Numbered from the stretch's first letter, positions 11,772 to 37,725 are shown. The stretch: DNA of 37,725 nt from Candidatus Fermentibacteraceae bacterium (GCA_016936235.1 JAFGPK010000048.1:1-37725); one strand, 5' to 3'. Made by a program: numbers and translations. The notes: generated from the sequence alone by a model not told the origin.

Positions 11772-11776
11772 CCGGA

Positions 11777-13652: not shown

Positions 13653-13666
13653 ATGGAGATAGCCTG

Positions 13667-14137: not shown

Positions 14138-14140
14138 ATC

Positions 14141-15274
14141 ATGACTGAAGAGAGAATACGATCGTTTGACAACCTTATGTCAGAGGTGATCTCAGCCGGG
14201 ATCTGCGGGAAGTGCGGGGGATGTGTCTCAGTGTGTTCGGCCAACATGATAAGGGCTCTGAAGCTTGATGAGAACGGCTTCCCGACCTACGCGGAGAAGG
14301 ATAGATGTCTTGAATGCGGCCTGTGCTACATAATCTGTCCCCAGACTCACTGCGTAAGGGATGAAGTGAGGGCCAGGTTCAAGTGGGAGCCTCCCATCGG
14401 CTACTACTCGGATGTCATCTCGGCACAGTCCACCGACCGGGAGATACTGGACGTAGCGACGGACGGCGGTGTCGTAACCGCTCTGCTTGTCCACATGCTG
14501 GAATCCGGGTTCATAGACGGCGCGGTCGTCTCCATCAGCAGGGACGGTTTCGGCCGGGAACCCAGCGTGGCGGTAACGAGAGAGGAACTGATATCGGCAG
14601 CGGGTTCACATTTCGGCGAGCTCCCCCATCTCGAGGAACTGGGTGACAGGTATACCAATTACGTCTCCGCTGTGAGATACGCCACCAGAGCCGCTCCCCG
14701 GAAGCTCAACAGGCTGGCGGTGGTGGGAACTCCATGTCAGATAACGGCCATACGCAACATGCAGGCCCTCGCCATGATGCCCTCGGACATAATGACCTTC
14801 ACCATAGGCCTTTTCTGCATGCAGTGCTTCGATCTAAGGAAACTCCTGGAAAAGGACTTTCTCAGCAGGAGGAACATCAGTCTCGATGACATACTGGGGA
14901 TGAACATAAAGGATGAATTCATTCTGACACTGCAATCAGGAATAAACGTCCGCATTCCGATGAGGGAGATCGAGGAAATAGCCAGACCCGCATGTCTCAA
15001 ATGCCAGGACTTCGCCAATGATTTCGCCGATATCTCGGTGGGCGGGCTCGGTTCGCCTGACAAGCACACCACGGTGATGATCAGGACCCTCAAGGGTAAG
15101 ATGATGATTGCCGATGCCCTGGCCGGCGGCCTCATCCGGAAGACGGGTGAGGGTTCTTCTGAAAAAGCGGGACCGGGCCACTCGGGGATGGTATCCCTGG
15201 TTAAGGAATTCGCTGAGAGGAAAAAGGCCAGGGGAGCCCGTTACAGGAGTACACCGGGCGGGAAGAATGACTGA
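14141..15274 (+). CDS. FrhB/FdhB-family flavo-iron-sulfur oxidoreductase
   Basis: This 377-residue protein has the full F420 hydrogenase/dehydrogenase beta-subunit layout. Two N-terminal [4Fe-4S] motifs are present (Cys22/25/28/32 and Cys56/59/62/66), then the conserved DGGVVTALL segment (about residue 108), VGTPCQI (195-201) in the FAD/deazaflavin domain and CLKC (285-288). Archaeal members reduce F420. Bacterial members next to Hdr genes often have unproven acceptors (NAD(P)H, ferredoxin, thiols). It occupies the place where HdrB is expected, directly after HdrC. Its stop overlaps the ATG of the HdrA-NuoE fusion. Confidence 0.85.
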   Translation: MTEERIRSFDNLMSEVISAGICGKCGGCVSVCSANMIRALKLDENGFPTYAEKDRCLECGLCYIICPQTHCVRDEVRARFKWEPPIGYYSDVISAQSTDREILDVATDGGVVTALLVHMLESGFIDGAVVSISRDGFGREPSVAVTREELISAAGSHFGELPHLEELGDRYTNYVSAVRYATRAAPRKLNRLAVVGTPCQITAIRNMQALAMMPSDIMTFTIGLFCMQCFDLRKLLEKDFLSRRNISLDDILGMNIKDEFILTLQSGINVRIPMREIEEIARPACLKCQDFANDFADISVGGLGSPDKHTTVMIRTLKGKMMIADALAGGLIRKTGEGSSEKAGPGHSGMVSLVKEFAERKKARGARYRSTPGGKND

Positions 15275-16172
15275 ATTGAAGAAGAAAGAGAAGATCGGAA
15301 CCCCTGATACGGCTGACCGGCAGTCGGGTGCCGTAATGGTCGTGGGCGGAGGTATCGCAGGAATTCAATCCTCGCTGGACCTTGCCGATTCGGGTTTCAA
15401 GGTCTACCTGCTGGAGAGGACCCCGGCCATCGGCGGGACCATGGCCCAGCTTGACAAGACCTTCCCCACCAACGACTGCGCCATGTGCGTTATTTCCCCC
15501 AAACTGGTCGGAAGCGGTCGGCACCTGAACATCGACCTCATAACCAATGCCGAGCTGATGGGCATTGAAGGGGATGCCGGCAATTTTACCGTCAAAGTGA
15601 AAAGGCATCCCAGGTACGTTGATTCGGAGAAATGCACCGGCTGCGGCGCGTGCGTCCAGAACTGTCCGGTATCCAGGATCATTTACGCTGTGGAACTGGA
15701 TGAGGTCGAACTGGAGAGGAAGGATCTCGATATCGTCATGCCTCTGCTGGAGGACAGCGCGGGGACCAGGGGATCGCTCATGCCCGTACTGCAGGCCATA
15801 GACAGGCATTACGGTTACCTCCCGAAGGATGTCATCAGGTTCATTTCCGGAAAACTCGATGTGAGCATATCCGAGATCTACAATATCGCCACCTTCTACA
15901 ACTCCTTCAGTCTCGTACCGAAGGGCAGGCACAGGATAAGCATCTGCATGGGGACCACGTGCTATGTAAAAGGGGCGGAGAAGATCATGCAGAAACTGTG
16001 CAGGGATCTCGGGACCGAGCCCGGGGGGACTACTGAAGATCTGAGATTCTCCGTAGAGGCTGCCCGTTGCATAGGATGCTGCAGCCTGGCTCCTGCAATA
16101 ATGGTAAATGACAGGGTTTACGGAAGGGTCAAGCTCAGCGACCTCTCCGGCATACTTAAGGAATACGAATGA
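15267..16172 (+). CDS. Fusion: HdrA N-terminal FAD segment + NuoE
   Basis: This 301-residue protein joins two parts. Residues about 20-140 match only the start of HdrA: GGGIAG (27-32), the conserved TFPTNDCAMC block (Cys71/74) and ferredoxin Cys123/126/129/133. The remaining two thirds of that HdrA FAD domain are missing. Residues about 155-301 are a complete NuoE-type thioredoxin-like [2Fe-2S] subunit with Cys227/232 and Cys268/272. The missing HdrA part occurs two genes downstream behind a NuoG-like head. The ATG at 15267 overlaps the upstream stop and has GGGAAG before it; an in-frame ATG at 15108 lies wholly inside the FrhB gene. The split FAD site may be rebuilt between chains. Confidence 0.88.
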   Translation: MTELKKKEKIGTPDTADRQSGAVMVVGGGIAGIQSSLDLADSGFKVYLLERTPAIGGTMAQLDKTFPTNDCAMCVISPKLVGSGRHLNIDLITNAELMGIEGDAGNFTVKVKRHPRYVDSEKCTGCGACVQNCPVSRIIYAVELDEVELERKDLDIVMPLLEDSAGTRGSLMPVLQAIDRHYGYLPKDVIRFISGKLDVSISEIYNIATFYNSFSLVPKGRHRISICMGTTCYVKGAEKIMQKLCRDLGTEPGGTTEDLRFSVEAARCIGCCSLAPAIMVNDRVYGRVKLSDLSGILKEYE

Positions 16173-18073
16173 TCGGCAGTTATACCCGGCTTCTTGACGG
16201 TCTTCAGGAGACCGGCCTTTCATCGCTGTACCCCGACAGGTTCAGGATATCCGTGGGAATGGCCACCTGCGGCCTGGCCACCGGGGCCATGGGAGTATTT
16301 CAGCGGCTGAAGGAGGAACTGGACAGGACGGGTTTCGATGCCGTCCTCTCCAGGACGGGCTGCCTTGGCTTCTGCCAGAGAGAGCCCGTGGTCGACCTTT
16401 ACGTTCCCGGCGGACCCAGACTGACATACGTGGAGATGACGCCGGAAAAGGCGGCAGGGTTCATAGACGTTCTTTCCAGGGGCGGCATACCGGTGGAAGA
16501 TCTCCTCTGCGTGCATCAGAGCGAGACCCTGCTGGGCGATACGGTCCGGGAGTACGGTACGAAGGGGATGGATCAGCTGTCCGGCGTACCGCTTTACACC
16601 GAAGTGCCATTCTTCTCCAAGCAGAGCAAGATCGCCCTGAGGAACTGCGGAATCATCGATCCCGTATCCATAGAGGAATATGTGGCCAGGTCCGGCTACA
16701 GGGCCCTTCATGACGTCCTGCTGGAGAAGACCCCGGAAGAACTCATCCGGGAAGTGAAGGAGTCCGGTCTCAGGGGAAGGGGCGGCGGAGGTTTTCCCAC
16801 AGGCCTGAAATGGGAGTACACCCGCAGGACGGAGGCCGATGAGCGTTACATCGTCTGCAACGCCGACGAGGGGGATCCCGGAGCCTACATGGACAGGTCG
16901 GTTCTCGAGGGGGACCCGCATTCCGTGATAGAGGGGATGATCCTCGGGGGGTTCGCCATGGGCGCGTCCACGGGATTCGTCTACGTAAGGACCGAATACC
17001 CCCTTGCCATACAGCGGATGGAGGAGGCCATCGCCCAGGCGGGTAAGAACGGTTTCCTCGGGGATGACATTTTCGGTTCGGGATTCTCCTTCGATATAGA
17101 GATCAGGCAGGGTTCGGGAGCCTTCGTATGCGGAGAGGAAACCTCGCTGATGCACTCCATCGAGGGTGTATCACCCGAACCTCGCAACAGGCCTCCTTTC
17201 CCTTCGGAATCGGGCTTATGGGAGAAACCCACGAATATCAACAATGTCGAGACATGGGCCAACATCCCGGCCATCATCCAGAAGGGAAGCGGCTGGTTCT
17301 CCTCCATCGGGACCGGGAAATCCAAGGGGACGAAAGTATTCTCCCTCGTGGGCACAGTGAGGAACACGGGGCTTGTGGAGGTGCCCATGGGGATAACGCT
17401 CCGTGAGATCATCTTCGATATCGGGGGTGGCATTCCGGAAGACAGGGAATTCAAGGCCGTTCAGACAGGCGGACCCTCGGGCGGATGCATCCCGGCGTCT
17501 CTGCTTGACCTGCCGGTGGATTACGAGCGGCTTGCGGAGGCGGGCTCCATCATGGGCTCCGGCGGAATGGTGGTCATGGACCAGTCCTCCTGCGTGGTGG
17601 ACATAGCCAGGTATTTCCTGGAGTTCACCAACGATGAGTCATGCGGGAAATGCACTTCCTGCAGGGACGGCAGCGAACTGATGCTCGAAATACTCACCAG
17701 GATAACCCGGGGCAACGGGAAATCCGAGGATATAGATTTCCTGGAGGAGCTCGGCGTCGCCATAACCGACGCTTCCCAGTGCGGATTGGGCCAGACCCTG
17801 GCCAATCCCGTTCTTTCCACTATCAGGTACTTCCGGGAGGAGTACGAAGCCCATATTGAGCGAGCCGTCTGCCCGGCCCACGCGTGCAAGGCTCTTGTCA
17901 CCTACAGAGTCGACGCCGGGCGGTGCACGGGGTGCACCCTCTGCGCCAGGAACTGCCCCAGCGGAGCTGTCAGAGGGAAGTTGAAGGAAGCCCATACCAT
18001 AGACCAGGGAAACTGCACAAAGTGCGGATTATGCTTTGATGTCTGCAATTTCAATGCGATCGTCGTGGAGTGA
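16169..18073 (+). CDS. nuoF: NuoF/HndC-type NADH dehydrogenase (diaphorase) subunit
   Basis: This 634-residue flavoprotein is of the HydB/HndC type found in NAD-linked bifurcating complexes. It has an N-terminal thioredoxin-like region with Cys34, Cys65 and Cys69, the NADH/FMN loop GRGGGGFPTG (203-212), CNADEGDPGAY soon after, and an N3-type [4Fe-4S] at Cys492/495/498 and Cys538. A C-terminal double ferredoxin has Cys586/589/592/596 and Cys616/619/622/626. It oxidises or produces NADH and passes electrons through FMN to the NuoE and NuoG-type partners. The start overlaps the NuoE stop (ATGA), and its stop abuts the NuoG-HdrA gene. It therefore lies between the two pieces of the split HdrA. 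Confidence 0.95.
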   Translation: MIGSYTRLLDGLQETGLSSLYPDRFRISVGMATCGLATGAMGVFQRLKEELDRTGFDAVLSRTGCLGFCQREPVVDLYVPGGPRLTYVEMTPEKAAGFIDVLSRGGIPVEDLLCVHQSETLLGDTVREYGTKGMDQLSGVPLYTEVPFFSKQSKIALRNCGIIDPVSIEEYVARSGYRALHDVLLEKTPEELIREVKESGLRGRGGGGFPTGLKWEYTRRTEADERYIVCNADEGDPGAYMDRSVLEGDPHSVIEGMILGGFAMGASTGFVYVRTEYPLAIQRMEEAIAQAGKNGFLGDDIFGSGFSFDIEIRQGSGAFVCGEETSLMHSIEGVSPEPRNRPPFPSESGLWEKPTNINNVETWANIPAIIQKGSGWFSSIGTGKSKGTKVFSLVGTVRNTGLVEVPMGITLREIIFDIGGGIPEDREFKAVQTGGPSGGCIPASLLDLPVDYERLAEAGSIMGSGGMVVMDQSSCVVDIARYFLEFTNDESCGKCTSCRDGSELMLEILTRITRGNGKSEDIDFLEELGVAITDASQCGLGQTLANPVLSTIRYFREEYEAHIERAVCPAHACKALVTYRVDAGRCTGCTLCARNCPSGAVRGKLKEAHTIDQGNCTKCGLCFDVCNFNAIVVE

Positions 18074-18078
18074 CCGGG

Positions 18079-21000
18079 ATGGAAGACAATACGGTAAGAC
18101 TTGTAATTGACGATAACCAGGTCCAGTGCCAGAAGGGAACGACTCTCCTGCAGGCCTGCAGGCGTCTGGATATAGACATTCCCACCCTTTGTTATCACCA
18201 ATCGCTATCTCCCTACGGTTCCTGTCGTCTCTGCCTTGTGGAAGTGGAGCAGAACGGAAGGACCTCCATACAGACCTCCTGCAATTATCCCGTCCAGGAA
18301 GGCTTGACCGTCAGGACTTCCACCGACAGGGTGATCCGGACAAGGAAGCTGATGGTGGAGCTCCTCCTGGCCAGATGCCCCGATTCCCGGGAGATAATGA
18401 GGCTCGCCTCCGAAATGGGCGTCACCGGAGAGCGGATCGAACCGAAGAACGAGGACTGCATACTCTGCGGACTTTGCGTGAGGATGTGCAGGGAGCGGAT
18501 GGGCAGGGGGGTCCTTGGTTTCTCGAACCGCGGAAGCAGGCGGATAGTATCGCCTGCTTTCGATGAACTGTCGGAGGAATGCCGGACATGCGGGGCGTGT
18601 TTCAGTATCTGCCCTGTGGAGAACGGGATAAAACTCGAGAAGATAACGGGTAACGTACCGCTTCCCATCAGGTCCGAATTTGACGAGGGGCTGGTGGACA
18701 GGTCGGCGGTGTACATACCCTATGCCCAGGCGGTCCCCAATTATGCCAGTATCGATCCCAGGTACTGCGTGCATCTTAATACGGGCGACTGCGGGATATG
18801 CAGCGAGTACTGCGAAGCCGATGCGATCGATTTCGACCAGGTGGAGGTGACATCGGACATAGGTGTCGGCGCTGTGATCCTGACTACCGGAGCCGAGCCC
18901 TTCGATCCGACACCGCTGCATGAATTCGGTTACGGCAGATACCCCAACGTTCTTACGAGCATTCAGTTCGAAAGGATCCTGGCGGCTTCCGGACCCTTCG
19001 AGGGGCATCTGCAGAGACCCTCCGACGGCAGGGTCCCCACCAGAATCGCGTGGCTCCAGTGCGTCGGTTCCAGGACCGAGGATTCACACATGCCCTACTG
19101 CTCCTCGGTCTGCTGCATGTACGCCATGAAGGAGGCGATAATCGCAAGGGAGCACGTAGGGACCGTTGAGCCCACCATTTTCTTCATGGACCTCAGAGCC
19201 CACGGCAAGGATTTCGACAGGTACTACGAACGCGCGAAGGAGACAGGTATCAGGTTCCAGAGGTCCAGGGTCAGTAAAGTGAGGGAGATCAGGGAAACGG
19301 GGAACCTGGAGATCAGGTACGTCACCGAAGACGGTACCGTGTGCCTTGAGGAGTTCGACCTTGTAGTGCTTTCGGTCGGTCTCGCTCCGGGGGATGGCAA
19401 CGGCATCCTGTCCGACAGGCTGGGATTGCGCCTGAACGAGTACGGTTTCATCGGGGGTTCGAGCGAGTCTCCCGTTGGAACGACCCGGAACGGCGTCTTC
19501 GTCTGCGGACCCGCAGGTTCGCCGATGGACATTCCCGAGACGGTCATACAGGCATCCGGAGCGGTGGCGGGAGCCGCTGAACTACTTTCGGCCGCCCGTG
19601 GCACTGAAATTGAGCAGAAGCGGTATCCGCCGGAGCTTGACGTACGAGGTAAAAGGCCCAGGATAGGCGTTTTCGTATGCCACTGCGGCACCAACATAGG
19701 CAGCATAGTCGATGTGCCGGATGTGGCGGAGTACGCCAGGAACCTTCCGGATGTGGTATACGCAGGCGAGAACCTGTTCACCTGTTCCCAGGATACCCAG
19801 GAGAAAATGAAGGAGCTCATAGAGGAGTACAGACTGAACAGGGTCGTGGTCTCATCCTGTTCCCCCAGCACCCATGAGCCCCTTTTCCAGGAGACGATCA
19901 GGGAAGCCGGTCTGAACCCATACCTGTTCAACATGGCCAACATCAGGAACCAGTGCAGCTGGGTCCACAGGAACGATCCGGCGGAAGCGACGAGGAAGGC
20001 CAAGATACTCACCAGGATAGCCGTGGGCAAGGCCAGACTCCTGAAGCCTCTCCATACCGTAGCCCTGGATGTGATCCAGAAGGGGCTGGTGATAGGAGGG
20101 GGGCTGGCCGGTATGACTGCCGCCCTTTCAATCGCCGATCAGGGTTTCCAGGTCGCCCTGGTGGAAAGAGAGAGTTCTCTTGGAGGCAACCTCCACAGAC
20201 TCTCGCGCAAGCCAGACGGTCATGTCGTCAGCGAGTATCTCGAGGAACTCACCGCCAGGGTGGAGAACCATCCCGGCATTACGGTCCACACAGGTTCCTG
20301 CATCACAGGCATCGACGGCTACATCGGTAACTATCTGACATCCATATGCAAAGCGGATACCGATACCCCAGTGGAGTACGAACATGGAGTGATCGTCATC
20401 GCAACCGGGGCGGAAGAGACAGTTCCCGATTCCTACCTTTACGGCGAATCCGGGGGGAAGGTACTGACACAGCTGGATCTCGAGAAGGACCTGGAGGAGA
20501 ACGGACAGGCCTTCGCGAAGCTGGGAACCGTTGTCATGATCCAGTGCGTGGGATCCAGGGATGACGAGCACCCCTACTGTTCGAGGGTCTGCTGCACCCA
20601 GGCGGTGAAGAATTCGCTGCGGCTGAAGGAACTCAACCCTTCGATGAACGTGTTCGTCCTCTATCGCGACGTGAGGACCTACGGTTTCAATGAGAAGTAC
20701 TACCAGCAGGCGAGGTCGAAGGGCGTGATATTCGTAAGGTACGATGAGGATGAGAAACCGGAAGCAGCCCTGGCGTCCGCCGATCCGGGGAGCGTGATAA
20801 CGGTAAGGGTCAGGGACCATGTCCTGGGTTCGATCCTCGAGATCAAAGCCGACAGGGTCATTCTGGCGTCTGCCATGAAACCGAGGGAGGATGCTTCGCT
20901 GCTCTCCCAGATGCTCAAGATACCCCTTAACGAGGACGGGTTCTTCATGGAGGCGCATGTAAAACTCCGACCGGTGGATTTCTCCGCGGAAGGGATATTC

Positions 21001-21354
21001 CTGGCCGGTCTCGCCCACTCCCCCAAGACCATGGACGAGACCGTCTCCCAGGCCAGGGCGGCTGCGGAAAGGGCATGCATAATCATCAGTTCCGACAAGT
21101 ACATGTCCGTCGCCAATATAGCCAGCGTCAACCCGGACGTATGCGCGGGATGCGGAATGTGCGTCTCCGTCTGTCCCTACAGCGCGCCGGGCCTGGTATG
21201 GAAGGGCGGCAGACAGGTCTGCTCCATCAATACCGCTCTGTGCAAAGGCTGCGGCAGCTGCTCAACCGTCTGCCCCTCGGGAGCCATGGAACAGCTTGGC
21301 TTCAGCGAGGAGCAGACACTGGAGATGGTGAACTTCTCTCTCATAAACCTGTAG
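18079..21354 (+). CDS. Fusion: NuoG-like N-terminus + HdrA lacking its first FAD-binding segment (HdrA unit 3)
   Basis: This 1091-residue protein starts with a NuoG/HydA-type [2Fe-2S] domain (Cys38/49/52/68) and [4Fe-4S] motifs at Cys127/130/133/137 and Cys168/171/174/178. It then enters HdrA at the second cluster (Cys230/238/241/245) and continues through the rest of FAD module 1 (YCSSVCC and GVFVCG motifs). It has a full second module (VCHCG, GGGLAG at 673-678) and a terminal double ferredoxin (Cys1022/1025/1028/1032 and Cys1055/1058/1061/1065). The first GxGxxG Rossmann of HdrA is absent and is found instead on the NuoE fusion at 15267. ATG 18079 is preferred over GTG 18070 because GGAG lies 8 bases before it. 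This is the last gene of the operon. Confidence 0.92.
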   Translation: MEDNTVRLVIDDNQVQCQKGTTLLQACRRLDIDIPTLCYHQSLSPYGSCRLCLVEVEQNGRTSIQTSCNYPVQEGLTVRTSTDRVIRTRKLMVELLLARCPDSREIMRLASEMGVTGERIEPKNEDCILCGLCVRMCRERMGRGVLGFSNRGSRRIVSPAFDELSEECRTCGACFSICPVENGIKLEKITGNVPLPIRSEFDEGLVDRSAVYIPYAQAVPNYASIDPRYCVHLNTGDCGICSEYCEADAIDFDQVEVTSDIGVGAVILTTGAEPFDPTPLHEFGYGRYPNVLTSIQFERILAASGPFEGHLQRPSDGRVPTRIAWLQCVGSRTEDSHMPYCSSVCCMYAMKEAIIAREHVGTVEPTIFFMDLRAHGKDFDRYYERAKETGIRFQRSRVSKVREIRETGNLEIRYVTEDGTVCLEEFDLVVLSVGLAPGDGNGILSDRLGLRLNEYGFIGGSSESPVGTTRNGVFVCGPAGSPMDIPETVIQASGAVAGAAELLSAARGTEIEQKRYPPELDVRGKRPRIGVFVCHCGTNIGSIVDVPDVAEYARNLPDVVYAGENLFTCSQDTQEKMKELIEEYRLNRVVVSSCSPSTHEPLFQETIREAGLNPYLFNMANIRNQCSWVHRNDPAEATRKAKILTRIAVGKARLLKPLHTVALDVIQKGLVIGGGLAGMTAALSIADQGFQVALVERESSLGGNLHRLSRKPDGHVVSEYLEELTARVENHPGITVHTGSCITGIDGYIGNYLTSICKADTDTPVEYEHGVIVIATGAEETVPDSYLYGESGGKVLTQLDLEKDLEENGQAFAKLGTVVMIQCVGSRDDEHPYCSRVCCTQAVKNSLRLKELNPSMNVFVLYRDVRTYGFNEKYYQQARSKGVIFVRYDEDEKPEAALASADPGSVITVRVRDHVLGSILEIKADRVILASAMKPREDASLLSQMLKIPLNEDGFFMEAHVKLRPVDFSAEGIFLAGLAHSPKTMDETVSQARAAAERACIIISSDKYMSVANIASVNPDVCAGCGMCVSVCPYSAPGLVWKGGRQVCSINTALCKGCGSCSTVCPSGAMEQLGFSEEQTLEMVNFSLINL

Positions 21355-22989: not shown

Positions 22990-24741
22990 GTGATGAAGAG
23001 TGATCAGGCACTCGAATTCATGGACCTCTTCGACATGGATAGGCTGCAGGAGCTTCAGGACGCATTCGCGGAACTCACCGGCACCGCATCCATCATCACT
23101 GATACCCGGGGCATTGCGATCACGCGGCCCAGTAATTTTGCAAGATTATGCAGCGAGATAATCAAGGGAACTGAGCAGGGCCGCCGTAACTGCGAACGCT
23201 CCGACCTGAAGACCGAGGCCGCCATCGGCAGCCCGGAAGCCGGAGGACCCGTTATAACCGAATGCCTCAGTGCCGGACTCTGGGACGCGGGAGCCGGGAT
23301 ATACGTCGGTGATACCCATATAGGTAACTGGCTGGTGGGCCAGGTGAGGAATATCGAGACCGAAGACCATCATTTCCGGGAGTATGCCCGCAAGATCGGC
23401 GCGGACGAGAAGGAGTTCATGGAAGCGCTGTCCGAGGTGACCACCATGAGCAGGGAGAGGTTCGGACTCATCTGCCGGACCCTCTATCTCATGACCGGGC
23501 AGCTGTCCGAACTGGCCAACCAGAACCATGCTCTCAAACTTGAGATGGAATCGAGAATTGCGGCGGAGGAGCAGAACAGGGTCGTGGAAGCGCAGATGCT
23601 GAATGCCCAGAAACTTGAAAGCCTCGGAGTCCTCGCCGGAGGGATAGCCCATGATTTCAACAACCTGCTGATGGTCATCCTGGGCAACGCCGAACTTGCC
23701 ATCGGCAGCCTGCCGGAAGACGGCAGTTCTCCGGAGCATCTTGTGGAAATAAAAAAAGTCGCCAGACAGGCTGCCGACCTGTGCAATCAGATGCTGGCAT
23801 ACGCCGGGCGGGGCAAGTTCGTCATAGAAGTCATCCATCTCAACAGCCTCATTTCGGACATGAAGCACATCCTGCAGATGTCCGTCTCGAAGAACGTAAC
23901 TCTTTCCTACCGCCTCATAGAGGATTGCCCGCAGATCCGCGGAGACCCGGGCCAGCTGAAGCAGGTACTGCTCAACCTGGTGGTCAACGTATCCGAGGCA
24001 ATAGGCGATAACGGTGGAATGATAGAGATCGAGACCGGAATAGCCGACAGAAGGGAAGTCCTGAATACCGGGACGCTGTTCGGTTTTCTGCCGGAAGGAG
24101 AAAATTACCTCTGTCTCAAGGTGACGGATAACGGGTGCGGCATGGAGGAGGCCACTCTGAACAGGATCTTCGATCCATTCTTCTCCACGAAGCTGACAGG
24201 CAGGGGACTGGGAATGGCGGCCGTTCTGGGTATCATGAAAGCACACAGGTCTGCGATCAATGTTTCCAGCAGTCCGGGAAGCGGATCCTCATTCAGTTTC
24301 TTCCTTCCCTTCCATGAAGCTCATGAAAAGGGTTCGACGAATATCAGATCAGGTGATGCCCAGGGCCGGGGGGCAAGAACAGGCACTGTGCTGCTGGTGG
24401 ATGACGAGGAGGGTATAAGACAGGTGGCGGGGAAGATGCTGGAATGCATCGGTTTCACGGTACTGACCGCCGCAGATGGACAGAAGGCCGTGAGCATCCT
24501 GAAGGCGGGAACAGACCCGGTGGACTGCGTTCTCCTGGATCTGACCATGCCCGGTCTTTCCGGGGCGGAGACATGCAGCGAGATAAGGAAACTGGATCCT
24601 GACCTGAAGATAGTCATAAGCAGCGGATTCGACGAGAAGGATGCCTCGCGGCAGGTTCCCCGTGAGTACATCTCGGGTTTCATCCAGAAACCCTACGGAC
24701 TGGCGGCCCTGGACCAGAAACTCAGGGAGATACTGGGGTGA
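22990..24741 (+). CDS. Hybrid sensor histidine kinase with PocR sensory domain and receiver
   Basis: This 583-residue protein has three parts. Residues about 10-175 form a PocR-type ligand-binding domain with Cys53, Cys68 and Cys92 and the CSEIIKGTEQGRRNC segment. The kinase core follows, with phospho-acceptor His221 (GGIAHDFNNLL), N-box near N333, DNGCGM (380-385) and GRGLGM (405-410). A C-terminal receiver has acidic DDEE (471-474) and phospho-acceptor Asp517. There is no DNA-binding output, so it needs a partner phosphotransfer protein. No transmembrane segment is seen, so it should sense a cytoplasmic signal. The start is GTG 22990 or ATG 22993, after AGGGG. Confidence 0.88.
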   Translation: MMKSDQALEFMDLFDMDRLQELQDAFAELTGTASIITDTRGIAITRPSNFARLCSEIIKGTEQGRRNCERSDLKTEAAIGSPEAGGPVITECLSAGLWDAGAGIYVGDTHIGNWLVGQVRNIETEDHHFREYARKIGADEKEFMEALSEVTTMSRERFGLICRTLYLMTGQLSELANQNHALKLEMESRIAAEEQNRVVEAQMLNAQKLESLGVLAGGIAHDFNNLLMVILGNAELAIGSLPEDGSSPEHLVEIKKVARQAADLCNQMLAYAGRGKFVIEVIHLNSLISDMKHILQMSVSKNVTLSYRLIEDCPQIRGDPGQLKQVLLNLVVNVSEAIGDNGGMIEIETGIADRREVLNTGTLFGFLPEGENYLCLKVTDNGCGMEEATLNRIFDPFFSTKLTGRGLGMAAVLGIMKAHRSAINVSSSPGSGSSFSFFLPFHEAHEKGSTNIRSGDAQGRGARTGTVLLVDDEEGIRQVAGKMLECIGFTVLTAADGQKAVSILKAGTDPVDCVLLDLTMPGLSGAETCSEIRKLDPDLKIVISSGFDEKDASRQVPREYISGFIQKPYGLAALDQKLREILG

Positions 24742-27862: not shown

Positions 27863-30800
27863 TCAACCCGGCTCGTTCTTCAGCTCCAGGATACGCCTTT
27901 GATACTTCGCCTTCGGGGTCAGGACCTGAAGTTCGCTGTAAAGTCTGACGGCTGTTCCGGAATGTAGCCGGCGCCCCGAACCCGGAATTGGGCATGACTC
28001 TTCCCGGGAGTTGCCGCACCTCCAGAGTTCGTAATGCAAGTCCGCCTGATCCTCCTTGCTCTCGGCTTCTGCCAGCATACCCTCCAGCGTGGAGACGGCC
28101 GCTTCTCTGTGACCAAGAGTGAAATCGATCTTGGCCGAGAGGATCCTCCCCTGGATCAGTATGTCCCTGCGGCTGACAATCTCGGCGAGTTGAATCCCTT
28201 CCGCCGCCGCCGCCGCCGCTTCGTCGATATCGCCCAAATGGTAGAGAGCCTCGGCCTTGAATACGAGATAGGAGCAGAGCTGGTAGTTGGCGTTCTGGTT
28301 CCTTCCCAGGGCTATTGCCCTGTCGAAGCACTCTATAGCCTCATCGTACCGACCTTCCGTAGTGTGAATGAGGCCCATGTTCCCAACGCTGATGGAGATG
28401 CTCCAACTGTCGCCCAGTTCCTCGCTGATCTCTATGTCCTTTTCGAAGCACTCCATCGCCTTTCCGTTCTCGCCTCTGAGGCCGTATACGTTACCCATGT
28501 TCCCGTAGGCTATGGAAATGCTCCACTTGTCTCCCAGCTCCCTGCTTATCTCCATGTACTTCTGCAGGTACTCCATGGCCTTCTCGTAATTGCCCTCGTT
28601 CGTGAAGGTCAGCCCCATGTTGCCGGTGACCCTTGAAACTCCCAGTCTGTTGCCGGACTTCCGGTTCATCTCAAGTGCCTGGTCGAAATATTCCAGCGCT
28701 CTCCCGTAATCTCCCCTGTCGTTATGAACAAGTCCCATGCTCATCAGTACCGACGGCATCGCCAGGTCATCGCCTGATTCACGCCATGATCGGAGGGTTT
28801 CTTCGTAGCATTCCACCGCCCTGTCCAGGTCGCCCTTCCGACGATGGACGTTCCCGATGTTCACCACTGCTTCCGCGATCTTCCGGATATCGCCTGTCTC
28901 ACGGCATATACTCAGGTCCTTTTCGAAGCACTCCATAGCCATTCGGTGATCGCCCTTCCGGTAGAAGAGCATACCGAGTGTCCGGCTGGCCAAAGCGATC
29001 CTGCCGGCGTCACTCATCTCTTCGCTCAGCGAGAGTGCTTTCTCAGCCGCTGTCCGGCATTCCGGCAACCTCCCGATGAGCCTGAGTATCCCGCTGACCT
29101 TAAGGAGCGTGTCGATCTCGAGACCTCTCGAGGGTTCAGTAACCCTGGCCTGGCTTGAGAGAAGCCTTTCGTAATAGTCCAGTGCCTGCTGATTCTGATA
29201 GCCCGTCCTGGCCTGATCGCCGGCTTTCTCCAGGTATTCCGCAGCTCTGTCCGGGATTTCCGCCTTTTCGTAATGCCAGGCCAGGTCACCGTAGCGGAGG
29301 TGAAGATCGGATTTGCAGAGCTTCTCGATGGCCCTGGCCGTGAGACAATGAAGTTCGCGAAGGCGGGTTCGCAGCTGAATGTCATAGACTGCATCCTTGA
29401 GAAGTGCGTGCTTGAAGATGTACACCAGTTCACTCAGTCTGGAGAGTATCTGACCCTCCTCTGCTATCCTCACCTGCGGTCCTACATCAGCCTGCATCAC
29501 AGCGGAGAGGATCCTTATCTCGAATTCCATTCCTATCACGGCCGCCGCTTTGATGACGTCCTTCACCTGCCGGGAGAGCCTGTCGATCCTGGCTATGATT
29601 ATCGAATTGATTCCCACGGGGATCGAGAAGGACTGACCGACATCGACTGAATCCGCCTCAAGATACCCGTTCTCCTGCAGGTAGAGGGTGATCTGCTCAA
29701 TGTAGAAGGGATTGCCCTCGCTCTTGTCGAAGATGAAACCCGCGATTCCTTCGGGTAAATCCCCGATTCCGCTGGATGCTGCGATGTCCCTGATCAGGGT
29801 TTCTGAAGACACGCTGTCCAGATACTCCAGTTCGATCCTGTTCTCGACGACATCCTGCAGCCCGAAACTGAACACGTTGCCGTCGTCCCGGTAACGGCAG
29901 GCCGAGATGACGATGAACGGGAAATCCTCGACATTCCTGGTCAGGACCTGCAGCAGTTCCAGGGAATCGCTGTCGATGGAGTGACCGTCCTCCAGTTCGA
30001 TTATCACAGGCTGCAGCAGGCTTTCCGCCTTGATCAGATTCTTGATGGCGAAGAGGGAATTCTCATAGCGGAGCCTGGCGTCCAGCTGTTCGTATAGCGA
30101 GTCCTCCCAGAACAGATTGACGAGGGCACCGAGGATGGACCTCGATTTCTCCAGTTCGTCGCGGACCATCCTCCACTGAGACTCTTCGACCTTGCCGATT
30201 GAATGGTCTCCGGCCAGGTCCGAAGGATCAGGGCGGTGCAGTCTGCCCAGCAGACGGACGAAACGGTCCTCGAATTCCTTCCTGTTCTCTTCCGTCGTTC
30301 TCTGCACCGACTGACCGAAGTAATCCCTGAGAAAATGGACAAAGGGATTGAAGCTCTTGCGCAGGATGTCATCGCATGGAAGGTGCAGCCACAAGAAGCC
30401 CGGACCTTCCCTAGCTGCGGCTTCCGCCAGGCTGTTGTGCAGTTCGTGGACAAGCCTGCTCTTGCCCGCACCCACTGAGCCGTCGACATGGACTATGCCG
30501 CCGAAACAATGATGGAAGATCGACTGGGTCAGAGCGATAAGCTGGCCCAGCTTCTCCCCGCGACCGACCATACGTCCCGCGAACAGCTGTCTCGATACCG
30601 GATTCTTGCCCAGCAACAGAAATGTCGGGACCGGTTCGGCGATGCCCTTGTAGTTGAAATCACCGGAATGCTCTATGTAATATTTATGTCCCGCGAGTCT
30701 CCGGACCTGCTCCGTAAGATAGACGGAACCCCATTCCGCCTTCATCATAAGACGGTTGGACAGGTTCACGATCTTTCCTACAGCGGTATACTCGCACCGG

Positions 30801-31846
30801 TCGTCTCCGCCGATGACGCCTGAATAGACGAGACCGAAAGCCAGTCCGGCCCGCCATTTGAAATCACGACACTTCATGCTTTCCGCCAGGGGGATGTCCC
30901 TGAGGGCGAGGAGAAAGTCGAGAGCCCTTTCCGAATCGTTCTCGAAGGCCACGGGTGCCCCGAACAGGACCAGCATGACACCGCCCTTGTCACCGAAATC
31001 CATCTTGTTGAAGAATGCCCTGTATCGATTCGCAAGATCAATCACCTTCGTTGCGAAGATGTCAAGACTTCCGATATCCTCGGGTTCGGTGAAAGAAATG
31101 AATACTGAGCAGGCGTTGCGGAATTCACCTTTCCCGCCAAGATCAATCACTTCCGTCGGCACGAACATCTGCTGTACAGAAGGGTCGATCGGGGTATTTC
31201 CGGATGGCTTCGATGGAATATCCAGCCGGTGGTCGAGCAACCTGTAACCGGTTCCCGAAGGCTCGGACTCAACACAGTCACGGATCAGGGGCATCATTCT
31301 TTCATCGGCTATGATGTCGCCCGTCGCCGCTCTGTGCTCCGCCTTCGCGCAAGCGTCCACAGCTTCGCCACGGAAGAAATACGTGAGACTGCGGTCCCTT
31401 CCCAGTATTCCCCAGCTGACTCTCCCAGCTGACAGACCGATCTTTACTCCGATCTCGAAGCTGCCGTACTCTGTCTGTGCCATCCGGTGATCCTCGAAGA
31501 AACGGTTTATGAAGAACGCGGCCTCTACAGCGTGCAGGTGGGCATCGATGTTCCCGTATCCCTCTGCGATGTTTTCCGAGGGGAACGGGAAGAGCGCGGT
31601 AAACGCGTCTCCGGCGAATGTGGAGATGATCCCTCCATGATCGCGTACGCATCTGACGACGGGATCGAAGGTGCCGTTGAGAACCCCTTTCAGAACCTCC
31701 GCGCCGTCTTTTTCATGGAGCATCAATGATTCCGTCAGCTTCATGAAGCCGGAGATGTCCACGAACATGGAAACCGCTCTGAAGTCCCCGTGAAAGCGAT
31801 TATCCAGGTACTGTCTGCCTATGTACTCCGGGATGAGGTTGTTCAT
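27863..31846 (-). CDS. Tandem class III cyclase + STAND ATPase + TPR protein (soluble adenylyl cyclase-like)
   Basis: This 1327-residue protein begins with two cyclase homology domains. Domain 1 (about 24-190) has both metal aspartates, Asp30 (FVDISGF) and Asp80 (FAGDAF), but its VNxxxR position reads AVDACAK. Domain 2 (about 245-410) has Ser251 in place of the first aspartate but keeps Asn361 and Arg365 (VNLSNR). Together they could form one active site as in mammalian C1/C2 pairs. A P-loop ATPase follows (GSVGAGKS, 456-463; Walker B-like IIELEDGHSID). About ten TPR repeats fill the C-terminal 500 residues. This order matches animal soluble adenylyl cyclase. It is cytoplasmic. A run of GCC codons (about 28201-28216) encodes a poly-Ala stretch between repeats. 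Confidence 0.88.
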   Translation of the reverse strand: MNNLIPEYIGRQYLDNRFHGDFRAVSMFVDISGFMKLTESLMLHEKDGAEVLKGVLNGTFDPVVRCVRDHGGIISTFAGDAFTALFPFPSENIAEGYGNIDAHLHAVEAAFFINRFFEDHRMAQTEYGSFEIGVKIGLSAGRVSWGILGRDRSLTYFFRGEAVDACAKAEHRAATGDIIADERMMPLIRDCVESEPSGTGYRLLDHRLDIPSKPSGNTPIDPSVQQMFVPTEVIDLGGKGEFRNACSVFISFTEPEDIGSLDIFATKVIDLANRYRAFFNKMDFGDKGGVMLVLFGAPVAFENDSERALDFLLALRDIPLAESMKCRDFKWRAGLAFGLVYSGVIGGDDRCEYTAVGKIVNLSNRLMMKAEWGSVYLTEQVRRLAGHKYYIEHSGDFNYKGIAEPVPTFLLLGKNPVSRQLFAGRMVGRGEKLGQLIALTQSIFHHCFGGIVHVDGSVGAGKSRLVHELHNSLAEAAAREGPGFLWLHLPCDDILRKSFNPFVHFLRDYFGQSVQRTTEENRKEFEDRFVRLLGRLHRPDPSDLAGDHSIGKVEESQWRMVRDELEKSRSILGALVNLFWEDSLYEQLDARLRYENSLFAIKNLIKAESLLQPVIIELEDGHSIDSDSLELLQVLTRNVEDFPFIVISACRYRDDGNVFSFGLQDVVENRIELEYLDSVSSETLIRDIAASSGIGDLPEGIAGFIFDKSEGNPFYIEQITLYLQENGYLEADSVDVGQSFSIPVGINSIIIARIDRLSRQVKDVIKAAAVIGMEFEIRILSAVMQADVGPQVRIAEEGQILSRLSELVYIFKHALLKDAVYDIQLRTRLRELHCLTARAIEKLCKSDLHLRYGDLAWHYEKAEIPDRAAEYLEKAGDQARTGYQNQQALDYYERLLSSQARVTEPSRGLEIDTLLKVSGILRLIGRLPECRTAAEKALSLSEEMSDAGRIALASRTLGMLFYRKGDHRMAMECFEKDLSICRETGDIRKIAEAVVNIGNVHRRKGDLDRAVECYEETLRSWRESGDDLAMPSVLMSMGLVHNDRGDYGRALEYFDQALEMNRKSGNRLGVSRVTGNMGLTFTNEGNYEKAMEYLQKYMEISRELGDKWSISIAYGNMGNVYGLRGENGKAMECFEKDIEISEELGDSWSISISVGNMGLIHTTEGRYDEAIECFDRAIALGRNQNANYQLCSYLVFKAEALYHLGDIDEAAAAAAEGIQLAEIVSRRDILIQGRILSAKIDFTLGHREAAVSTLEGMLAEAESKEDQADLHYELWRCGNSREESCPIPGSGRRLHSGTAVRLYSELQVLTPKAKYQRRILELKNEPG

Positions 31847-33641: not shown

Positions 33642-34229
33642 CTACTGCATCGTGGCCTTGATCGCCCCCCACGTTGTCTGCTCGAGAGAATACCCGCCGA
33701 ACAGGAAGTTGGGACCGAAGCGGCCTATAGATGTCGAAGTGGAAGCGGGGAAGACGAATCCAAGTTCCGATGAGGCTGGATAGACCGAGCTTAACCAGGT
33801 GATTTCCGTGGCGGCGGTCATGGAAGAGGCCGAAGAGATATAGTAGTCGCTGTCGCCCGGAAAATACAGGGCGCCGATGGTATAGGTCTGCCCTGTGAAG
33901 AGACTGGTAGGGGCTACGCTGGCGTAGATCCAGTCGCCCACTACGGTTCCGCCGGCGTCGACTGTGGCCGAGGTGACAAGGTTCTGGGACCCGTCCCAGA
34001 TGCCGACCTGGTGCGGCGATTCGATACCGCCGGTCTGGTCGGCGTTCCACACGCCCAGATCGGTCACATAGAGATCATCGTTGACCGTGAACCGCCAGCC
34101 GATGACGTCGCCGGAGGCGCTCCCATAGTAAGAATCATACTGAGAACCACCCGCAAACCCGATTATCGCCTGCCCCAGGGCGACCGGTGCGCAGACGAGA
34201 AGCATGATCCCGTACACTGCTGCTCGCAT
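33642..34229 (-). CDS. Small secreted beta-rich protein (DUF4082-like)
   Basis: This 195-residue protein has a signal peptide (about 1-19, ending in ALGQ) and a beta-rich mature domain. The motifs GWRFTVNDDLYVTDLGVWN and GGTVVGDWIYAS resemble DUF4082-type or PEP-CTERM-associated carbohydrate-surface domains. No C-terminal anchor or sorting sequence is seen. GGAGGGAG precedes the ATG. It is probably a single-gene unit, with its own candidate promoter upstream and a hairpin downstream. The role is unknown; an extracellular or cell-surface location is inferred. Confidence 0.72.
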   Translation of the reverse strand: MRAAVYGIMLLVCAPVALGQAIIGFAGGSQYDSYYGSASGDVIGWRFTVNDDLYVTDLGVWNADQTGGIESPHQVGIWDGSQNLVTSATVDAGGTVVGDWIYASVAPTSLFTGQTYTIGALYFPGDSDYYISSASSMTAATEITWLSSVYPASSELGFVFPASTSTSIGRFGPNFLFGGYSLEQTTWGAIKATMQ

Positions 34230-34325: not shown

Positions 34326-35000
34326 TCATTTCCGCCAGATACCCCAGACTATCCTCCACTTCATCTCTGGGAGCAGGTCAGGGAGATGTTCGACATGCAT
34401 TGCAAGGAACTCCCTGTCAGGTGCACGGGAAGTGCTCAGGACTTCTCCGCCGTATTTCCTGAAGAACCCTGACTTACTGAAGTAATCATCCAGTCGTCCT
34501 CCGTGTCCGGTATGGAGCCCCGATCTACGTAGACCGGAGAGCAGTTCCGCTCCGAGCCCTCCGTCCGGACTGACGACGGTGGCCTCGTAATCATACTCAC
34601 CGAATACGGCGAACAGGCCTCCCGGTGAAAGCCTGTCCCTTACCCTCCTGAGCCATTCCACCGGTTCACGGATGCTGGAGAAGAAGAATGACGCGACGTA
34701 GAGGTCCGCTTCACGGGGGTCACTCAGGGCGTCTCCATGGAAAAAGCCGTCTTCCCCCGGGAGTATGCGGCTGTCCAAGTCCATGCCTGTATAGACGGCG
34801 TCTGTCAGGTTCCTGAGCTCCCGGCCGAGAAGCCCGGTGCCGCAGCCGGGTTCGAAGACCCTGCCGATGCTGCCGAGGGGCAGCATCGAGAACATGCGCC
34901 TTCGAAGTGGGGCGAGCTCCCGGAACTGCCTTTCATAGATCCGTGCAAGGACCCGCCTGTCACATGGAGTCCCTGCAGGGCCCTCCGCGCTTGCTCTCAA
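34326..35000 (-). CDS. Class I SAM-dependent methyltransferase
   Basis: This 224-residue protein has the Rossmann methyltransferase motif I EPGCGTG (50-56), acidic Asp74 after strand 2 (GMDLD), a GDAL segment (89-92) and a motif II-like DLYVASFFF (99-107). LSPGGLFAVFGEYDY (125-139) follows. The start is a TTG at 35000 with a strong GGAGGAGG 8 bases upstream, inside the last codons of the radical SAM gene, so the two overlap by 41 bases and are coupled. By context it may methylate the product of the radical SAM enzyme. Small-molecule methylation cannot be excluded. Confidence 0.85.
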   Translation of the reverse strand: MRASAEGPAGTPCDRRVLARIYERQFRELAPLRRRMFSMLPLGSIGRVFEPGCGTGLLGRELRNLTDAVYTGMDLDSRILPGEDGFFHGDALSDPREADLYVASFFFSSIREPVEWLRRVRDRLSPGGLFAVFGEYDYEATVVSPDGGLGAELLSGLRRSGLHTGHGGRLDDYFSKSGFFRKYGGEVLSTSRAPDREFLAMHVEHLPDLLPEMKWRIVWGIWRK

Positions 35001-36279
35001 GGGGACATCCTCCTCCGCACAGACTGTAATGGACGCAGCTTGAGCATTCCTCCTCCACCCATGTCCTGTCCCTGGCGCTTTTCATCAGCCGGCTGTTCCA
35101 GATGGAATCCCAGGTATCCGTGAGGATGTTGCCCGCGGATTCGTACCAGCTCTGACAGGGCAGCACTTCACCGTCGGGCTCGACACAGAGGTTGTACTCC
35201 CCGGCTGTGCATCGCTTGGGCCCGAGGGAGAATTCCAGGGGATTGAACTCGCAGTACCTGGTGGGGGAGTACCAGATCAACCTCATGTCCAGCTCGTCCA
35301 CCGTCTCCGTCAGCTTCAGCATGGTGGATTCCAGCTCCAGGGGCGATAGGGAGAAGTCTCCTTCCAGGGCCTTCCCGGAGTGAATGACCGCGTTGGCCGC
35401 GATGGCCTCCAGCCCAAGGTCACGGGCGAATCGGACCGTGCCGCTCATCTGATGGCCGTTGAGCCTGGTCAGTGTCGTGTTGGTGATGGTGTGCAGCCCC
35501 GCATCCAGGCAGTTCCTGATGGCCAGGACAGTGCTGTCGAAGCCGTCCTCTCCCACCATCATGTTGTGAACGCTCCTGTCATGGGATTCCAGGGTTATCT
35601 GGACATGGTCCAGACCTGCTTCCATGATATCCTCGAGGTAATGGCCGTCAGCCAGTCTGATTCCGTTGGTGAGCAGACCAGTGACCATGCCCAGGGATTC
35701 TGCGAAGCCTATGAGCTCGGACAGGTCCTCTCTCAGTGTGGCCTCCCCGCCGGTGAAGATCACGTGGGGAACGCCAAGGTCCCATATGAGCCTTATCACG
35801 CTCTTCCACTTCCCGGTGGGGAGTTCCTGCTTCTCCCTGGCCTGGTTGTAGCAGTGCCCGCATTTCAGGTTGCACCTGTAGGTGAGGGCCAGGTCCATCC
35901 TGTAGGGCACCTCGACAGGGCTCTGGAAAGGTTCCCTCACATCCATGTTCAGGAAGGAGATCGGCTCCGACGCCCCGGTCTCCAGTATCGCTTCCAGGAC
36001 ACCGCTGAAGTCCGCGAGGTCGGACACGGCCTTCCGCCTGCCCACATTGTACCTGTTCCTCAGCATTCTCACGGTTTCGCTGCCGGTTAGGTCCGAGAGC
36101 ATCATCCATGCCATGTCAACCGCTACGCTGTTGAGATGTATTATCCTGGACGCGTCCACCGTGAGTATGCCGCTTCCGGACTCGTCCGCCCTGAGGTGAA
36201 GCCTGTGTCCGTTCCTCAGGAAATGATGGATGCCCTTGGGGCAGATCCTTCCGCCTGAATTCTTATTCTTCTCCGACAT
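34960..36279 (-). CDS. Radical SAM/SPASM enzyme with N-terminal PqqD-like domain
   Basis: This 439-residue protein is built like a peptide maturase. Residues about 17-100 resemble PqqD, the RiPP recognition element (IIHLNSVAVDMAWMMLSDL, then a helical end). The radical SAM cluster motif is Cys136/140/143 (CNLKCGHC), followed by TGGEA (177-180 region). The C-terminal SPASM domain has Cys357, 365, 375, 412, 415, 421, 425 and 435 (CGGGC at 421-425) for auxiliary [4Fe-4S] clusters. ATG 36279 is chosen because GGAGG lies 8 bases upstream; an upstream in-frame ATG (36306) lies inside the Cys-tail gene. It starts one base after the stop of the gene whose product ends in a Cys-Ala repeat, its probable substrate. 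Confidence 0.9.
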   Translation of the reverse strand: MSEKNKNSGGRICPKGIHHFLRNGHRLHLRADESGSGILTVDASRIIHLNSVAVDMAWMMLSDLTGSETVRMLRNRYNVGRRKAVSDLADFSGVLEAILETGASEPISFLNMDVREPFQSPVEVPYRMDLALTYRCNLKCGHCYNQAREKQELPTGKWKSVIRLIWDLGVPHVIFTGGEATLREDLSELIGFAESLGMVTGLLTNGIRLADGHYLEDIMEAGLDHVQITLESHDRSVHNMMVGEDGFDSTVLAIRNCLDAGLHTITNTTLTRLNGHQMSGTVRFARDLGLEAIAANAVIHSGKALEGDFSLSPLELESTMLKLTETVDELDMRLIWYSPTRYCEFNPLEFSLGPKRCTAGEYNLCVEPDGEVLPCQSWYESAGNILTDTWDSIWNSRLMKSARDRTWVEEECSSCVHYSLCGGGCPLESKRGGPCRDSM

Positions 36280-36280
36280 G

Positions 36281-37725
36281 TCACCTGCCTCCCCCGGCAC
36301 ATGCACATGCGCAGCCCGCGCAGGCGCAGGCGCATGCGCAGCTGCTTCCCGAGCTTCCTCTGTAGGTCGAGACCGGCACCGGATTCGTTGCGGCTGTGAC
36401 GCTCCTGGACATCTTCGTCATGTCGCCCACCATCCGTCCGGCGGAACCCTCCAGGAACCCGGCCATCTCGGAGCAGGCCCTGGAGAGCGATATGCCCCCG
36501 GAGATCCCTGAGGCTGCCTTCCCGGTGAAGAAACCGTGCATGAAGGAGGGGAGGTAGACCATCCTGTCTTCAGGAAGGTCCTTGATCCTGGATTCGAACT
36601 CGTCGTCCGCCAGAAGCCACCCGAACATGTCGCCAAGTCTCTTTCCCAGCTTCTCGGTGGACTGGTCAGCCTCCACCATTCTCCATGCGCTCCGGATGAC
36701 GCTCCTGTAGTACTCCCGGGTCTCCTCAAGGGAGTACCCCTTCATCTTCTCCTCCAGTTCCTCTATCATGTCCATGAATATCTTCCTGATCCCCTCCCCC
36801 GGAATCGGCCCCTTCTCCGGGACGATCTCCAGCAGGGCCGTCTCGTATGACCTGAGGCCGTCCACGGAACCGGTCCTCCTGAGGGAATCCTCCTCCAGCT
36901 GAAGGACCCCCTTCCTTATCATGCCGTAGATGATCATCAGGAAGACCCTGTCCAGCTTCTCCTCCAGCAGAAGCGCCGCCATGGGCGCGGTGAGTCCCCT
37001 TCGGACGCTGGAACCCTCAAGGCCGATGGTCGGGGGAAGGTACTGCTCCCTTCTTTTCCTGGCCTTCCGGACGGAGATCACTATGACGAACGCGATAGAC
37101 CCGAAGATTACGAACATGATGAAGAAGGATATGATCGTGGCGATGGCGGCGGGGCTCAGGAGAGGTTTTTTCGGCCTTTCCGCCAGGGGGCCGTCAACCA
37201 GGTCCGCCGGGAAGGATATGCCGACCGTGTACGGCGAATCGACCTTCCTGGCCTCTTCCCACACGAAGACCACATTGCCCTGTCCGTTTACATAGGAGTC
37301 GGTGAACGGCCTGTCATGATAATAGACATCGCCCGGTTCAGCTCCCGGTGGGAAGACCATCTCCATCCTGAAATCGCTCCGGCCGCTTAGAATGCCTCCG
37401 TCGAACCATGTGGGAGAGAATTCCACAGATGCATAGCCGTCCTTTTCATCGTCCAGAAAAACCATTTCGGGATTACGACCCGAGAGCATGAACCTCCCGC
37501 CGGTTCCCTGGCGGATGGCGTTCCCTCCCAGATGGACTTCCACGCCTATGTCTATGTATTCCGACGGGTAGATGCGGTAAAGGCGCTCTCCATCTACGGA
37601 GGCGGATACAGAACCCATGTCGTAATCGTCCGTGGGAAAACCGATATCCACGATGTCTATGCTGCTTCGGCCGATCTCGCACTGGAACAGGATGTCGTAG
37701 GAGATGGAGATGCTCCTGTCCCGAT
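36281..37725 (-). CDS. DUF2207-like membrane protein with Cys-Ala repeat tail (5' end beyond window)
   Basis: About 480 residues are visible and the frame stays open to the window edge, so the N-terminus is missing; the GTG at 37651 is internal. An extracellular beta-rich region comes first, then one strong transmembrane helix (codons about 37150-37075, followed by RKARKRR). A helical cytoplasmic region with AALLLEEKLDRV and YGMIRKGVLQLE follows, as in DUF2207 proteins. The chain ends, after a Ser/Gly linker, in seven Cys alternating with Ala (36299-36340), split by one Gly, and a final GGGR. A maturase-like radical SAM gene follows after one base. The tail is likely a modification site or metal ligand; which one is unknown. 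Confidence 0.75.
   Translation of the reverse strand, partial: RDRSISISYDILFQCEIGRSSIDIVDIGFPTDDYDMGSVSASVDGERLYRIYPSEYIDIGVEVHLGGNAIRQGTGGRFMLSGRNPEMVFLDDEKDGYASVEFSPTWFDGGILSGRSDFRMEMVFPPGAEPGDVYYHDRPFTDSYVNGQGNVVFVWEEARKVDSPYTVGISFPADLVDGPLAERPKKPLLSPAAIATIISFFIMFVIFGSIAFVIVISVRKARKRREQYLPPTIGLEGSSVRRGLTAPMAALLLEEKLDRVFLMIIYGMIRKGVLQLEEDSLRRTGSVDGLRSYETALLEIVPEKGPIPGEGIRKIFMDMIEELEEKMKGYSLEETREYYRSVIRSAWRMVEADQSTEKLGKRLGDMFGWLLADDEFESRIKDLPEDRMVYLPSFMHGFFTGKAASGISGGISLSRACSEMAGFLEGSAGRMVGDMTKMSRSVTAATNPVPVSTYRGSSGSSCACACACAGCACACAGGGR
36284..36346 (-). repeat. Cys-Ala dipeptide repeat tail coding region
   Basis: This stretch encodes the linker end and seven Cys residues, each followed by Ala, in a 4+3 arrangement around a single Gly, then GGGR and stop. 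Both TGC and TGT and four different Ala codons are used. The protein pattern is therefore kept although the DNA repeat has decayed, which suggests selection on the peptide. Confidence 0.85.
36288..36292 (-). promoter_or_regulatory. Ribosome binding site of the radical SAM gene inside the Cys-tail codons
   Basis: GGAGG, read on the - strand, is formed by the codons for the terminal Gly-Gly and lies 8 bases before the ATG at 36279. It decides that start over 36306 and places translation of the enzyme directly behind that of its presumed substrate. Confidence 0.7.

Follow-up and report, generated by a model that had tools for sequence, protein, structure and literature searches.

What does a radical S-adenosylmethionine (SAM) enzyme act on when its gene begins one base past the end of a gene for a large membrane protein, and the C-terminus of that protein consists of Cys alternating with Ala? 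The question was raised by a contig of Candidatus Fermentibacteraceae bacterium (GCA_016936235.1, JAFGPK010000048.1:1-37725), a stretch of 37,725 nucleotides referred to here, at its full length, as the window. The explanation considered best as a whole, with a probability of roughly 0.7, is that the Cys-Ala tail is modified by the adjacent enzyme and remains attached as a cytosolic appendage. The elements of the locus in the window were the following:

36281..37723, minus strand: membrane protein, C-terminal 480 amino acids, its N-terminus lost at the contig end (open reading frame (ORF) read directly)
36284..36340, minus strand: tail CACACACAGCACACAGGGR, the proposed modified segment, whose final 17 residues are invariant in homologs of the same type
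34960..36279, minus strand: enzyme of 439 amino acids with a domain like the recognition element (RRE) of ribosomally synthesized and post-translationally modified peptides (RiPPs), a radical SAM core and a SPASM region, the first gene past the tail (Pfam, AlphaFold2 (AF2) model and PDB folds)
35980..36234, minus strand: N-terminal part of the enzyme resembling PqqD and RREs, at residues 16-100 of the model, where beta strands precede three helices
35851..35874, minus strand: radical SAM cluster motif CNLKCGHC (CX3CX2C), with Cys invariant in 35 aligned homologs
34999..35253, minus strand: SPASM region, with invariant Cys at 343, 357, 375, 412, 415, 421 and 425 (alignment of homologs)
34326..35000, minus strand: class I SAM-dependent methyltransferase of 224 amino acids (Pfam Methyltransf_12, 8.3e-9)

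The C-terminus encoded by the ORF at 36281-37723 (minus strand) reads ...SSGSSCACACACAGCACACAGGGR up to the stop; Ala alternates here with seven Cys, and one Gly stands between the fourth and fifth Cys-Ala units. The stop codon TGA occupies 36283-36281, and a single base separates it from the ATG of the enzyme at 36279. The methyltransferase ORF begins at a TTG and shares 41 bases with the enzyme gene. A preliminary description of this DNA had reported the tail of seven Cys ending in GGGR, the one-base distance and the 41-base overlap; direct reading gave exactly the same tail, and the coordinates agreed. As the window spans the complete contig and the membrane-protein ORF runs off its end, neither the N-terminus nor the zinc-ribbon gene usually found upstream is included in it.

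To establish how widely the tail occurs, a degenerate DNA pattern for CACA-x-CACACA-GG, leaving the middle residue and everything past GG unspecified, was scanned over about 85,000 genomes, and at least 118 loci matched it. Among the matches listed, tail loci appeared in Chloroflexota, Fermentibacterota, Acidobacteriota/Aminicenantes, Zixibacteria, Coatesbacteria, Edwardsbacteria, an actinomycetote and Asgard archaea; the unspecified middle residue was Gly in all of them, the end was GGGR-stop at all loci except one (L129, GGGGGR), and every testable tail (115/115) was the C-terminus of one membrane-protein family, which supports the earlier proposal of a substrate at the C-terminus of a large membrane protein. 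Across 131 unique contexts, the protein stayed unchanged while Cys was encoded by both of its codons, Ala and Gly by all four each and Arg by all six, and each of the three stops occurred, in a tally whose Cys and Ala positions were pre-selected by the search pattern. Moreover, the final 17 residues, CACACAGCACACAGGGR, were the only long invariant block in an alignment of 48 family members, and a relaxed tail pattern occurred once in the 2.68-Mb genome, the reversed control giving 0. The tail is therefore not a product of chance, given this single genomic occurrence, the empty control and a protein kept constant across synonymous codons. Furthermore, a homology search of 42 Fermentibacterota genomes found the membrane protein in 26, one copy being cut by a contig end, and every copy with a readable end had the same tail. 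Variants were a permuted tail, CACAG(CA)4GGGR (e.g. L165:6382-8466, plus strand), the form CACACACVSCACACAGGGR in a Hermodarchaeota genome (L179:1282-3123, plus strand) and several Asgard forms, including an uninterrupted (CA)6GGGR. Taken together, sequence comparison indicates that the tail is under extreme constraint at the protein level, and such exact conservation, spanning two domains and several phyla, implies a strict chemistry. An argument that the single Gly shifts the register of a hairpin, placing Cys opposite Ala, was discarded as non-diagnostic, since the uninterrupted Asgard (CA)6GGGR could pair via another turn.

The linkage between tail and enzyme was counted among the matches listed at the 95 loci having 1.5 kb or more of downstream sequence, where the enzyme gene lay directly next to the tail gene in 82 and a pseudo-enzyme was next in 6 more. 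Among 42 Fermentibacterota genomes, the sets with tail and with enzyme were identical, 25 having both and 17 neither (Fisher 4e-12, with phylogeny ignored), and in the home genus both were present in some species only. In 150 Anaerolineae genomes, all 15 that matched the tail pattern carried the enzyme (at least 511 bits). Five others had an enzyme of the Cys-Ala (CA) clade with no match to the pattern; two of these enzymes adjoin the CACAG(CA)4GGGR tail, which the pattern missed, and the contig of a third is short. As for the 196 Asgard genomes, 14 matched a tail pattern and 36 carried strong enzymes, and of 20 seemingly tail-less enzyme loci that were read, 16 had a (CA)5 or (CA)6-GGGR tail directly upstream. 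One Asgard genome (G220) had the tail and no enzyme match, possibly through incompleteness, and at another Asgard locus two tandem enzyme genes follow the tail (L229:432-2351, plus strand). Because the enzyme nearly always accompanies a tail that hardly changes, the Cys-Ala tail is very probably the dedicated substrate of the paired radical SAM enzyme.

A second pair, independent of the first, was found. The weaker enzyme matches in Anaerolineae (327-375 bits) formed a separate sister clade with 100/100 support, and beside this enzyme a homologous membrane protein is encoded whose tail of about 50 residues is built on the motif CHSA and is rich in both His and Cys. An example from Anaerolineae is given by:

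L172:2368-4287, plus strand: membrane protein of the CHSA pair
L172:4291-5703, plus strand: enzyme of the CHSA pair

The CHSA pattern appeared in 19 of the 150 Anaerolineae genomes, all of them among the 20 with the sister enzyme, and in 0 of those with the CA tail. Asgard archaea share the CHSA pair, its two genes being divergently oriented in the loci read (L218-L222, L224-L226, L228 and L230). In the place of the methyltransferase, the CHSA-type enzyme is followed by a coiled-coil-like protein of about 410 amino acids and a zinc-ribbon membrane protein (L172:5707-6930, plus strand; L173:3898-5142, minus strand). As judged by sequence, tail type and enzyme clade co-vary across two domains, as predicted for an enzyme and its substrate.

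This co-variation also bears on two explanations in which the tail stays unmodified. In the first, the tail would bind metal through its CXC units in the manner of a metallothionein, and the target of the radical SAM enzyme would be another component of the pathway. CXC spacing is similar to that of thiolate metal-binding motifs, and in 78 of 81 loci (among the matches listed) a gene for a zinc-ribbon membrane protein lies upstream of the tail gene. However, metal-binding tails usually tolerate Ala substitutions, whereas here Ala and the terminal GGGR are invariant, and the enzyme clade follows the tail type, so that this explanation is improbable. In the second, the tail would be an arm delivering clusters or sulfur for the assembly of the Fe-S clusters of the partner enzyme, which fits a Cys-rich tail beside a three-cluster enzyme. 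Nevertheless, related SPASM maturases are not known to require such a partner, and a separate adaptation would be needed for the CHSA pair, which leaves delivery with a very slight probability.

The membrane protein of the window has a beta ectodomain, one transmembrane helix (about 37046-37153), a basic cytosolic anchor (KARKRR) and a cytosolic region of winged-helix-like and helical character, followed by a Gly/Ser linker and the tail. A full-length relative (L004, 74% identical), with a small zinc-ribbon membrane protein encoded upstream, supplied the signal sequence, and its model (mean pLDDT 87.4) combined a signal helix and a beta ectodomain with a single long transmembrane helix, a cytosolic winged-helix-like region and a disordered tail. 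Intact homologs were about 510-620 amino acids long, and the residues after the transmembrane helix were basic in most members. Because of the topology of this model and these basic residues, the tail is predicted with good confidence to face the same compartment as the enzyme, the cytosol, a prediction that may not extend to every member, as some from Asgard archaea carry extra transmembrane segments. Foldseek related the ectodomain in part to the beta domains of M1 aminopeptidase and of an oligosaccharyltransferase subunit (TM-score at most 0.30), which gave no functional clue.

Regarding the family, neither the window fragment nor two full-length homologs matched any Pfam model, DUF2207 (PF09972/PF20990) included, at E<=1, and no Pfam or NCBIfam model exceeded its cut-off in the CA-tailed proteins scanned. 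Against TIGR04222 (cut-off 43), the full-length relative scored 13.7 bits, below the cut-off, and 5 of 48 members matched at E<=0.1 (best 7.8e-5). The CHSA-tailed protein scored 33.8 bits against TIGR04222, also under the cut-off, and passed that of DUF2207 PF09972 (25.4 vs. 24.4). The term 'DUF2207-like' used in the preliminary description is thus borne out by the architecture and by the CHSA-tailed sister, but not by any Pfam match of the CA-tailed proteins tested.

The enzyme matched Radical_SAM (1.6e-22) and SPASM (7.9e-10) in Pfam and PqqD weakly (0.028, and E=0.0018 in a second scan). Its AF2 model (mean pLDDT 88.0) contained an RRE-like N-terminal domain, and the closest PDB folds were SkfB, CteB, SuiB and PqqE, the epimerase EpeE being matched as well; the RiPP-recognition-like domain described earlier for this enzyme was thereby recovered. 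In 35 aligned homologs, C136, C140 and C143 of the CX3CX2C motif were invariant. Of the SPASM Cys motif (CX9-15GX4C, CX2CX5CX3C and a final C), C357-x12-G370-x4-C375 and CX2CX5CX3C (412-425) were likewise invariant, and so was an additional C343, but the final Cys was not. The best named NCBIfam match was PqqE (TIGR02109; 144.8 bits, below the cut-off of 381), and no NCBIfam cut-off was passed among the matches listed. In many Anaerolineae, the active enzyme is directly followed by a pseudo-radical-SAM paralog that kept the fold and the RRE-like part and lost the cluster cysteines:

L042:2121-3278, minus strand: example of the pseudo-radical-SAM paralog (orthologs aligned)

A class I methyltransferase was found downstream at many loci in both domains, among them those of Asgard archaea, Anaerolineae and Fermentibacterota.

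From these elements, a sequence of events may be proposed. The membrane protein would insert with the beta ectodomain outside and the C-terminus in the cytosol, the RRE-like domain of the enzyme would bind it, and the radical SAM centre with the SPASM auxiliary clusters would modify the Cys-Ala repeat. The likeliest reaction would be an intramolecular thioether from Cys sulfur to the C-alpha of Ala or Gly (sactionine), which is preferred because the nearest maturases form thioethers and a Cys-to-Ala sactionine occurs in ruminococcin C1 (PMC8172795; see also PMC8188230); by this analogy, thioether chemistry on the tail is given slightly less than an even chance. A second modification would be installed by the methyltransferase, on Cys sulfur or the C-terminus, and methylation of the tail is considered a matter of equal odds. 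The pseudo-enzyme of Anaerolineae would probably serve as a recognition partner, and the mature tail would be a rigid cytosolic appendage, thioether-rich or binding metal or redox cofactors, instead of a released peptide.

A tentative alternative retains the tail as the substrate and replaces the thioether by another reaction, for instance epimerisation at C-alpha, oxidation or decarboxylation of Cys, or C-C coupling, yielding a site with metal or redox activity. In its favour are PqqE as the highest-ranking named family in NCBIfam, the fold matches to PqqE, SuiB and EpeE, and the abundance of His as well as Cys in the CHSA tails, whereas the two best folds are those of the thioether/sactipeptide maturases SkfB and CteB, and the CA-type tail provides only Cys, Ala, Gly and Arg.

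Several observations weigh against a tail modified in place by its neighbour. Fold similarity cannot tell an enzyme that forms sactionines from one that catalyses C-C coupling, epimerisation or decarboxylation, and the candidate substrate is a membrane protein of more than 500 amino acids, not a small precursor. The model detected no methyltransferase in 11 of 38 loci with at least 4.7 kb downstream, and none was detected near the CHSA enzymes. Two of the five Anaerolineae genomes with an enzyme and no pattern match (G058 and G059) have the enzyme and methyltransferase, with the tail protein not found in their assemblies. Moreover, 7 of the 95 loci lacked an adjacent enzyme. Six of these seven genomes were checked and encode an enzyme of this clade at another site (at least 528 bits, vs. 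at most 170 for the unrelated radical SAM protein ranked next), and the seventh (L149, outside the six checked) had a second tail-family protein downstream. Tails regularly occurring without the enzyme had been named beforehand as the result that would speak against the pairing; the co-occurrence check gave the opposite in Fermentibacterota (25/25), Anaerolineae (15/15) and the six unlinked genomes. Finally, no peptidase or exporter was conserved beside the tail gene among the neighbourhood clusters. The same absence counts against the membrane protein being a giant leader from which the tail is cleaved and released as a RiPP natural product: the order of RRE-radical SAM and methyltransferase genes is like that of RiPP clusters, but the tail is predicted to be cytosolic and hardly diversifies, unlike most bioactive RiPP cores, and a released product is accordingly quite unlikely. 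Beyond modification of the CA tail itself, it may be cautiously suggested that two sister lineages in bacteria and Asgard archaea, with cytosol-facing (CA)n-GGGR and (CHSA)n tails and co-evolving enzymes, make a new kind of site within the protein itself (cross-linked, metal or redox), whose role would be housekeeping and not antibiotic. A Streptococcus mutans DUF2207 protein influences stress tolerance (PMC10457818), which is a distant hint only.

Other genes of the window were also recorded. Just downstream of the methyltransferase, 33642-34229 (minus strand) encodes a secreted-looking protein of 195 amino acids with a sub-threshold DUF4082 match. A protein of 1327 amino acids with guanylate-cyclase, AAA ATPase and TPR domains is encoded at 27863-31846 (minus strand), its best NCBIfam match being a TOMM system kinase/cyclase fusion, far under the cut-off. 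On the plus strand, 22990-24741 encodes a single protein with PocR sensory, histidine kinase ATPase and response-regulator domains, and 1554-21354 holds a long series of FAD/4Fe-4S (Hdr-like), FrhB/FdhB and NuoF/NuoG-like ORFs resembling a flavin-based electron-transfer operon.

The pairing of tail and enzyme is described by no family database or open-access paper searched: no open-access paper was found containing CACACAGCACACAGGGR or linking DUF2207 to radical SAM enzymes, and CHSACHSAC had no occurrence among the matches listed from such papers, all of them unrelated. RRE-radical SAM enzymes would gain a conserved, membrane-anchored protein substrate as opposed to a diversifying secreted peptide. 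Furthermore, with two natural enzyme-tail pairs at hand (CA and CHSA), exchanging the tails offers a direct test of specificity, and native mass spectrometry is within reach for those Anaerolineae that are in culture.

The system resembles those of the sactipeptide and ranthipeptide maturases (SkfB, CteB, RumMC2) in the RRE-like N-terminus, the CX3CX2C core, the SPASM region with its putative clusters and the Cys-rich candidate substrate encoded next door. It differs from them in its candidate substrate, the C-terminus of a membrane protein that spans the membrane once and is conserved across phyla, with no small cleaved leader precursor and no conserved protease, and in the presence of a pseudo-enzyme paralog and a methyltransferase. 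With PqqE/PqqD it has the PqqD-like domain in common, but there is no PqqA-like substrate, a Cys-Ala tail taking the place of Glu-Tyr. The membrane protein is like DUF2207 proteins in its signal, beta ectodomain, transmembrane helix, cytosolic winged-helix-like region and Gly-rich C-terminus, although the CA-tailed family has no Pfam match and one DUF2207 protein (at L169) has a Gly-rich tail without Cys. On the other hand, enzymatically matured Cys tails on membrane proteins have already been proposed for TIGR04222, whose Cys-rich C-terminal tails would be substrates of MNIO enzymes (PMC12452194). Both cases involve distantly related membrane proteins with a Cys-rich C-terminal tail as the proposed substrate; however, the enzyme here is a radical SAM-SPASM protein, the tail is predicted to be cytosolic and theirs periplasmic, TIGR04222 tails are diverse and Ser/Gly-rich (PMC12452194) whereas this tail is nearly invariant, and no MNIO was found by Pfam in representatives of the recurrent neighbour clusters of the tail loci. 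Considered together with the TIGR04222/MNIO case, the locus suggests that the DUF2207-like membrane proteins may be a general carrier of enzymatically matured tails.

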